Made by a program: the position numbers and the translations under genes | Shown here: positions 23,901 to 24,829 of the stretch, piece by piece | Layout: each line of letters begins with the position of its first letter | Numbering within the stretch: position 1 is the stretch's first letter | Notes under the pieces: model-generated | The model's database searches: none | Told to the model about the DNA's origin: nothing | What the model saw: the letters and a program-made list of their open reading frames with translations, nothing else | NCBI GenBank assembly: GCA_030655775.1 | Contig: JAUSPI010000096.1 | Coordinates: 1 to 36,753 of the forward strand | Origin: Syntrophales bacterium | GTDB taxonomy: Bacteria; Desulfobacterota; Syntrophia; Syntrophales; JADFWA01 | Length of the DNA stretch: 36,753 bases | Direction: 5' to 3'

Positions 23901-24422
23901 CTACGTGGCTGTTTCGGTTTTCTCTAATTTATACTGATGGTACAGCAGTATAAATCCTATTATAGGCAATAAAATGTCAGTCCAGAAGATGATACCCGCA
24001 TTTCCTGGAGAAAAGTTATGGGCTTTAACCATTTGGTAGACGTGTCCTCCGGCAGCACCCCAGAGGAAAAAGGCCGGTGCAGTTACCGCAGCGGCCCGGA
24101 AACCAAGTCCGGCTCGAAATGCGATTAACCCCACGACTCCAAATCCCAAACTAGCAAAACCAACTTCATACTGAAAAGGACTGTTTCCCCAGCCGATGAA
24201 CGCAGCCGACATTTCAGCAAAGAAGACATGGCAAACAAAATTATAGATATGACCAATCCCAATGCTAAAGAGAAGAAAATAAGAGAAAATGGCCTCAACG
24301 ATGATTTTTTTATGCAGTGGTTTTGTGTTTTTTACCAGTGAAACAAGGGAACAGAGCAGGCCAATTACCAGGAATGTGAGTGTGAAATTACGAAGAGCAA
24401 ACTCGACAAGACTATCAATCAT
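23901..24422 (-). CDS. DUF6790-like integral membrane protein
   Basis: A 173-residue membrane protein with about five hydrophobic segments: LTFLVIGLLCSLVSLV, IIVEAIFSYFLLFSIGIGHI, FGVVGLIAFRAGLGFRAAAV, APAFFLWGAAGGHVYQM and ILLPIIGFILLYH. The conserved stretch GWGNSPFQYEVGFASLGFG is, from memory, typical of the DUF6790 family of unknown function. Conserved His residues (GHIYN, FVCHV, GGHVYQ) could bind metal or heme; this is inference. AAGGAG lies 7 nt before the ATG. It follows the candidate selenoprotein gene by 126 nt on the same strand. Confidence 0.8.
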   Translation of the reverse strand: MIDSLVEFALRNFTLTFLVIGLLCSLVSLVKNTKPLHKKIIVEAIFSYFLLFSIGIGHIYNFVCHVFFAEMSAAFIGWGNSPFQYEVGFASLGFGVVGLIAFRAGLGFRAAAVTAPAFFLWGAAGGHVYQMVKAHNFSPGNAGIIFWTDILLPIIGFILLYHQYKLEKTETAT

Positions 24423-24548: not shown

Positions 24549-24725
24549 TTATCTGGAAATAGTAGAAGAGACAATTAAAGCCCCGATTACTGCGCCGATA
24601 ATAATCCCTGTCCAGGGATTCGAAGTCATGGCTCAGGTGCTTCCGGAGCACTTGCCGGCATATCCTATGATACCGCCAATCACGGCACCTGCAATTCCTC
24701 CGATGATGTATCTGGTTATCATCAT
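24549..24725 (-). CDS. Candidate selenoprotein: small DUF6132-like membrane protein with in-frame TGA
   Basis: Reading through one TGA gives 58 residues: MMITRYIIGGIAGAVIGGII, then GYAGKCSGST-U-AMTSNPWTG, then IIIGAVIGALIVSSTISR and TAA (24549-24551). The TGA is codon 31 (24635-24633). Family-like sequence continues after it: glycine-zipper membrane helices on both sides, and a C-x4-U followed by TSNPW, where DUF6132-type proteins (recalled from memory) have a Cys followed by PITSNP. Thus Sec replaces the second Cys of a redox-like pair. AGAGGG lies 6-7 nt before ATG 24725. A hairpin of bacterial SECIS form follows the TGA. No selA, selB, selC or selD is in this window, so decoding must rely on genes elsewhere. 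The alternative is a nonsense mutation; the conserved continuation with no other lesion argues against it. Confidence 0.72.
24603..24632 (-). promoter_or_regulatory. Candidate bacterial SECIS element
   Basis: On the minus strand, 18 nt separate the TGA (24635-24633) from a 6-nt apical loop TGGACA, closed by a perfect 6-bp stem AATCCC / GGGATT. A loop 16-37 nt after UGA with a G in its first two bases fits the known bacterial SECIS rules (bSECIS model). The fold was judged by eye. Confidence 0.55.
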
Positions 24726-24829
24726 AATTCCCTCTTGGCGATTAGTCGATTAGATAGTAGAATTCCAAAATCTTCGGAAGCAAATTTCTGTCATTCGGAA
24801 TCATTGTTACCATTTCATCTTTTACCCAT

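Follow-up and report, generated by a model that had tools for sequence, protein, structure and literature searches.

The gene at positions 24725-24549 (minus strand) of the window, by which we mean the whole 36,753-nucleotide stretch of Syntrophales DNA analyzed here, very probably encodes a selenoprotein and represents the selenocysteine (Sec) form of DUF6132, a family of small membrane proteins. Comparison of the TGA-containing members of this family with one another and with their Cys-containing homologues makes a strong case for Sec in the TGA forms. These look like an uncatalogued selenoprotein; the family itself is known, though uncharacterised, and its Sec variant would be new.

Gene organization and predicted structure

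The gene comprises 58 codons from an ATG at 24725 to a TAA at 24551-24549, and the TGA at codon 31 is the sole in-frame stop before this terminal TAA in a frame that is otherwise open. Its features are as follows.

24549-24725, minus strand: DUF6132 gene read through the TGA, MMITRYIIGGIAGAVIGGIIGYAGKCSGST-U-AMTSNPWTGIIIGAVIGALIVSSTISR (translation; Pfam PF19628 match)
24633-24635, minus strand: in-frame TGA, codon 31, the proposed Sec codon (TGA in 24 other genes, Cys in Omnitrophota and Riemerella homologues)
24648-24650, minus strand: TGC codon of C26, the Cys that pairs with U31 in C-x4-U (without variation in alignments of 26 and 27 sequences)
24603-24620, minus strand: hairpin AATCCCT-GGAC-AGGGATT, which resembles a SECIS element and has its apical loop 18-19 nt beyond the TGA (fold, recoding, covariation)
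24730-24736, minus strand: ribosome-binding-site-like AAGAGGG, 4 nt before the first ATG and 7 nt before the second

The readthrough protein scores 38.7 bits against Pfam PF19628 (DUF6132; cut-off 23.2), and its position 31 aligns with the Cys of the Omnitrophota and Riemerella forms. A preliminary description of the locus, which gave no strand, had proposed a 58-codon gene of DUF6132 type with a good ribosome site and an in-frame TGA at codon 31, all of which is confirmed here. It had also expected gene callers to miss or split the gene, and the TGA indeed divides it into separate ORFs of 30 and 26 aa.

The gene is flanked by a cupin gene upstream and, as the next gene downstream, by a DUF6790 membrane protein (23901-24422, minus strand, 212 bits), which belongs to a family of unknown function. 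A cyclophilin-type PPIase gene (PF00160; 25774-25289, minus strand) lies nearby and is listed as an ORF of 114 aa only; it has an in-frame TAA at 25738-25736, which may reflect a nonsense mutation or an assembly error, unless translation begins internally.

The AlphaFold2 model of the protein, built on an alignment of 26 sequences without the Riemerella plasmid row, contains two helices (residues 3-28 and 37-57), and residue 31 falls in the turn that joins them. With a mean pLDDT of 66 and a pTM of 0.35, only the hairpin outline of this model is usable; the hydropathy agrees with the two predicted helices. C26 and position 31 are invariant in the 26-sequence alignment, the exceptions L055 and L057 lying outside it. 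We predict, with only moderate confidence, two membrane helices with the C/U pair at the turn. The earlier proposal that the second Cys of a C-x4-C pair is replaced by Sec is supported by the occurrence of TGA or Cys at this position, by the Sec machinery and by the hairpin.

TGA and Cys forms among homologues

The search for DUF6132 in 395 genomes drawn from the window's phylum gave 14 matches in 12 genomes, every one of them (14/14, window gene counted) with exactly one TGA. The class Dehalococcoidia (393 genomes) gave 10 matches, and all 10 have exactly one TGA at the same place; L040, L043 and L044 are named loci of this group. In the phylum of an Omnitrophota locus (384 genomes), a TGA is found in 0 of 36 matches; the single TAA and the single TAG counted in two of these both lie at match ends. 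All 30 Omnitrophota matches that were read have Cys at the Sec position, typically within GKCxxGxCPLTSNP. Cys is also present at this position in a Riemerella plasmid gene annotated as DUF6132, which was found with a probe based on known family features; tblastn against plasmids with P0001 or with an Omnitrophota form gave no match. The TGA-form proteins of the window's phylum align at the TGA as C-x4-U (C-x5-U in three of them), followed by five residues and then P-W. In both TGA and Cys forms, conservation is as high downstream of the TGA position as upstream of it. The homologues checked show TGA or Cys at this position, in agreement with the earlier statement that the family carries Cys there, and a check for further lesions in relatives found none, as the TGA genes have one TGA each and frames otherwise open.

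These data bear directly on whether the TGA could mark a pseudogene, or a sequencing or assembly error in one MAG. The contig may indeed hold errors, given the in-frame stop in the neighbouring PPIase gene, but the TGA stands at the identical codon in 24 other genes from many genomes and two separate groups, and both the conserved frame after it and the selection on synonymous sites described below argue against decay. This explanation is vanishingly improbable, and the conservation of the TGA leads us to reject it for the family.

Sec and Cys forms fall on two sides of one branch (support 75/94) in the Sec/Cys tree, whose columns are too few to establish that the Sec form arose only once. Genomes G264 and G234 have two TGA-type genes each (L025, L027, L036, and L037), drawn from two different clades of the tree. 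Within the window's order and class, DUF6132 occurs in 1 of 155 genomes, namely the window's own, which suggests horizontal transfer or frequent loss. In two Dehalococcoidia loci Sec is retained although the usual C/U pair is lost: in L055 (1501-1635) the partner Cys is altered and a Cys immediately precedes U (PCU), and L057 (1501-1650) has no Cys shortly before U.

A conserved hairpin downstream of the TGA

The sequence following the TGA in the window gene folds into AATCCC-TGGACA-GGGATT, a stem of 6 bp with a 6-nt loop that starts 18 nt after the TGA and has G at loop position 2; it can also close to 7 bp with a GGAC tetraloop. The stem given in the preliminary description (6 bp, 6-nt loop, 18 nt away, G at loop position 2) is therefore exact, and it proves to be conserved and covarying as well. 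Both closures (6-7 bp, loop TGGACA or GGAC, 18-19 nt) lie within the geometry of bacterial SECIS elements, namely a loop of 3-9 nt, a stem of 4-16 bp, a G at loop position 1 or 2 and a distance of 16-37 nt from the UGA (PMC13188914). The minimum free energy (MFE) is -7.3 kcal/mol for the bare hairpin and -8.4 kcal/mol for a 30-nt window, against a published limit of -7.5.

Recoding with synonymous codons, which is a fair null within a coding region, was used to assess the hairpin. For the window gene alone, the p-values are 0.01 for stem length and 0.024 for the 30-nt MFE. For the 25 distinct TGA genes the mean stem is 5.76 bp as compared with 3.42 +/- 0.22 after recoding (0/1000), and the MFE is -10.0 as compared with -6.2 +/- 0.5 (0/1000), whereas the Cys forms show no excess (stem 1.59 vs 1.70, MFE -3.2 vs -2.8). 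The 25 TGA genes share a CCN-TGG at constant distance from the TGA, and most of them form a hairpin whose apical loop (GGTC, GGAC or, in a single gene, GGTT) begins 18-19 nt past the TGA. Their codons are those that the hairpin RNA needs: Pro is CCC in 22/25, Gly GGG in 20/20, and Ser TCA in 18/21. Both sides have changed in four of the seven pairs, including CCC/GGG to CCA/TGG (synonymous for Pro, Gly to Trp), and the covariation score of 0.219 compares with 0.125 +/- 0.021 for shuffled data (0/500) and falls whenever the register is shifted. Most Cys forms lack the W-(S/T)-(G/W) residues found in the TGA forms, which would therefore owe their presence in part to the RNA. In one clade (L028, L032, L034, L036, and L037) the hairpin is not better than the null, and one of its pairs is broken in L028 and L032; this clade may have a variant loop.

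A further alternative is that the UGA normally terminates translation, so that the product would be a 30-residue first helix and the rest would rarely be made. Each half is an open frame in itself (30 and 26 aa), as such termination would have it; however, in both forms conservation continues past the TGA position at the level seen ahead of it, and the hairpin is under selection at synonymous sites. On these two grounds we reject plain termination, which we consider extremely unlikely. By eye, no other convincing candidate for TGA readthrough was seen in the window.

Selenocysteine machinery and decoding of the UGA

The window's own genome (3.04 Mb, 276 contigs, 99% complete) contains selA (605 bits), selB (367 bits), selD (383 bits, with an in-frame TGA in THGAGUACKIG) and a tRNA-Sec (76.2 bits vs a cut-off of 47) with a TCA anticodon in the anticodon loop CUUCAAA. 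The machinery that the preliminary description had named as a check is accordingly complete, and with selA, selB, selD, and tRNA-Sec all in place, the organism qualifies as Sec-decoding by the standard usually applied in comparative work. Its SelD (L010, 1501-2430) is itself a selenoprotein (GAGUACK), with a hairpin AGGTCC-GGG-GGACCTT after the TGA that has a G-rich loop and lies at about the same distance as the DUF6132 hairpin.

Across genomes, selA exceeds the cut-off in 12/12 holders of the TGA form in the window's phylum and in 7/9 in Dehalococcoidia, and it does not in one further genome, G537, the holder of L044. The totals are 19/22 genomes with the TGA form vs 2/33 Omnitrophota genomes with the Cys form, a difference in the direction that a selenoprotein would predict, in counts that are not independent because the groups differ in ancestry. 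The three TGA-form genomes without selA over the cut-off are MAGs of 0.9-2.0 Mb, for which missing contigs would be an explanation.

The UGA might instead specify a different amino acid, such as Cys or Trp, through a reassigned code or an unusual tRNA. Decoding of UGA as Cys by altered tRNAs reportedly occurs in nature (Mukai et al. are said to have described it in 2016), and a Cys at position 31 would suit DUF6132. Nevertheless, TGA is the ordinary stop of several long ORFs in the window, which makes a general reassignment of the codon unlikely, and the genome contains the full Sec machinery. TGA use in DUF6132 tracks selA, and the hairpin, which a change of code would not need, is kept in the TGA forms only. 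We regard decoding as another amino acid as very unlikely, and we reject a reassigned code because of the ordinary TGA stops, the tracking of selA and the restriction of the hairpin to TGA forms.

Relation to known selenoproteins

DUF6132 is not among the 119 prokaryotic selenoprotein families or subfamilies in Table 1 of a May 2026 review (PMC13188914), in line with the preliminary description, which knew of no described selenoprotein in this family. It is also not among the nine new families, as named, of the 2025 deep-Sep paper (PMC12013277), and the NCBIfam selenoprotein models, including those for the three hypothetical proteins of that paper, do not match the window protein. In a limited literature collection we found no paper on DUF6132, nor one on selenoproteins and glycine zippers.

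The PF19628 Cys forms of Omnitrophota and Bacteroidota resemble the window protein in length, in the two glycine-rich helices, in the C-x4-C/U at the turn and in the (L/I)TSNP-like residues that follow. The TGA forms differ from them in having the proposed Sec for the second Cys, in the W-(S/T)-(G/W) after Pro that is encoded to form the hairpin, and in standing outside the ArsR/thioredoxin/CoA-disulfide-reductase neighbourhood. UGA-coded Sec, a bacterial SECIS, Cys homologues, and a redox-type motif are shared with catalogued prokaryotic selenoproteins, among which the mercuric transport protein-like (PF02411) and YeeE/YedE (PF04143) proteins are likewise membrane proteins with Sec (PMC13188914). 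These two, however, are other Pfam families with other Sec motifs (C/SxxU and GUxSG), and the window protein matches neither.

The TGA forms would add a selenoprotein family in two deep lineages whose genes ordinary callers would split or miss, and would give the uncharacterised DUF6132 a testable chemistry, as a residue kept throughout as Sec or Cys is very likely its reactive residue. At 58 residues and two helices, the protein would be very small for a membrane selenoprotein and would offer a simple setting in which to ask why Sec replaces Cys at the membrane.

Proposed mechanism and possible function

In the proposed mechanism, ribosomes would reach the UGA at codon 31 of the DUF6132 mRNA, where SelB with Sec-tRNA(Sec) would bind the hairpin just downstream and Sec would be inserted. 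This would yield a 58-residue product with two glycine-rich membrane helices and a short turn containing C26-x4-U31. The Cys/Sec pair may cycle between reduced thiol/selenol and selenenylsulfide, and may exchange electrons or sulfane sulfur with a soluble partner at the surface of the membrane. A broader picture, offered tentatively and as somewhat doubtful, is that these are new minimal integral-membrane selenoproteins of anaerobes, probably oligomeric, in which a Sec at the tip of a glycine-zipper hairpin of two helices relays electrons or sulfane sulfur across the membrane or along it.

We infer a membrane redox role from the C-x4-U motif together with the operons of the Cys forms. A search for neighbours conserved around the TGA forms gave none beyond close relatives, so that the proposed redox role rests on the Cys forms; the scattered neighbours include CGGC-domain, GDSL lipase, OMP barrel, TPR, and NfeD genes. 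Among 17 Omnitrophota Cys-form regions, whose neighbour families were identified on representatives, an ArsR-type regulator occurs in about seven, a thioredoxin in about six and a pyridine nucleotide-disulfide oxidoreductase with a rhodanese domain in about eight. Persulfides are substrates for reduction by CoA-disulfide-reductase/rhodanese-type enzymes (PMC7969121), and in Bacteroides fragilis a similar gene influences resistance to diamide (PMC6158253). This neighbourhood is the best clue to a partner of DUF6132 and points to persulfide or polysulfide and thiol balance in anaerobes. Taking it together with the lack of a conserved partner of the TGA forms, we consider a persulfide/thiol role quite possible, if short of probable.

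The same considerations make it rather unlikely that the C/U pair binds metal ions such as those of copper or mercury, whether in place of redox work or alongside it, a proposal that concerns function only and is compatible with Sec. ArsR-type regulators, which often sense metals, occur near the Cys forms, the Riemerella Cys form lies directly after a heavy-metal-associated domain gene, and two TGA loci adjoin CGGC-domain genes. Yet the commonest Omnitrophota neighbours are thioredoxin and CoA-disulfide reductase/rhodanese, and the absence of the partner Cys from the TGA form L057 weakens the metal-pair and the redox-pair models alike. Omnitrophota loci L111-L121 show a recurring arrangement of ArsR, thioredoxin, DUF6132 (Cys), and CoA-disulfide reductase/rhodanese, which looks like a persulfide or thiol-balance module.
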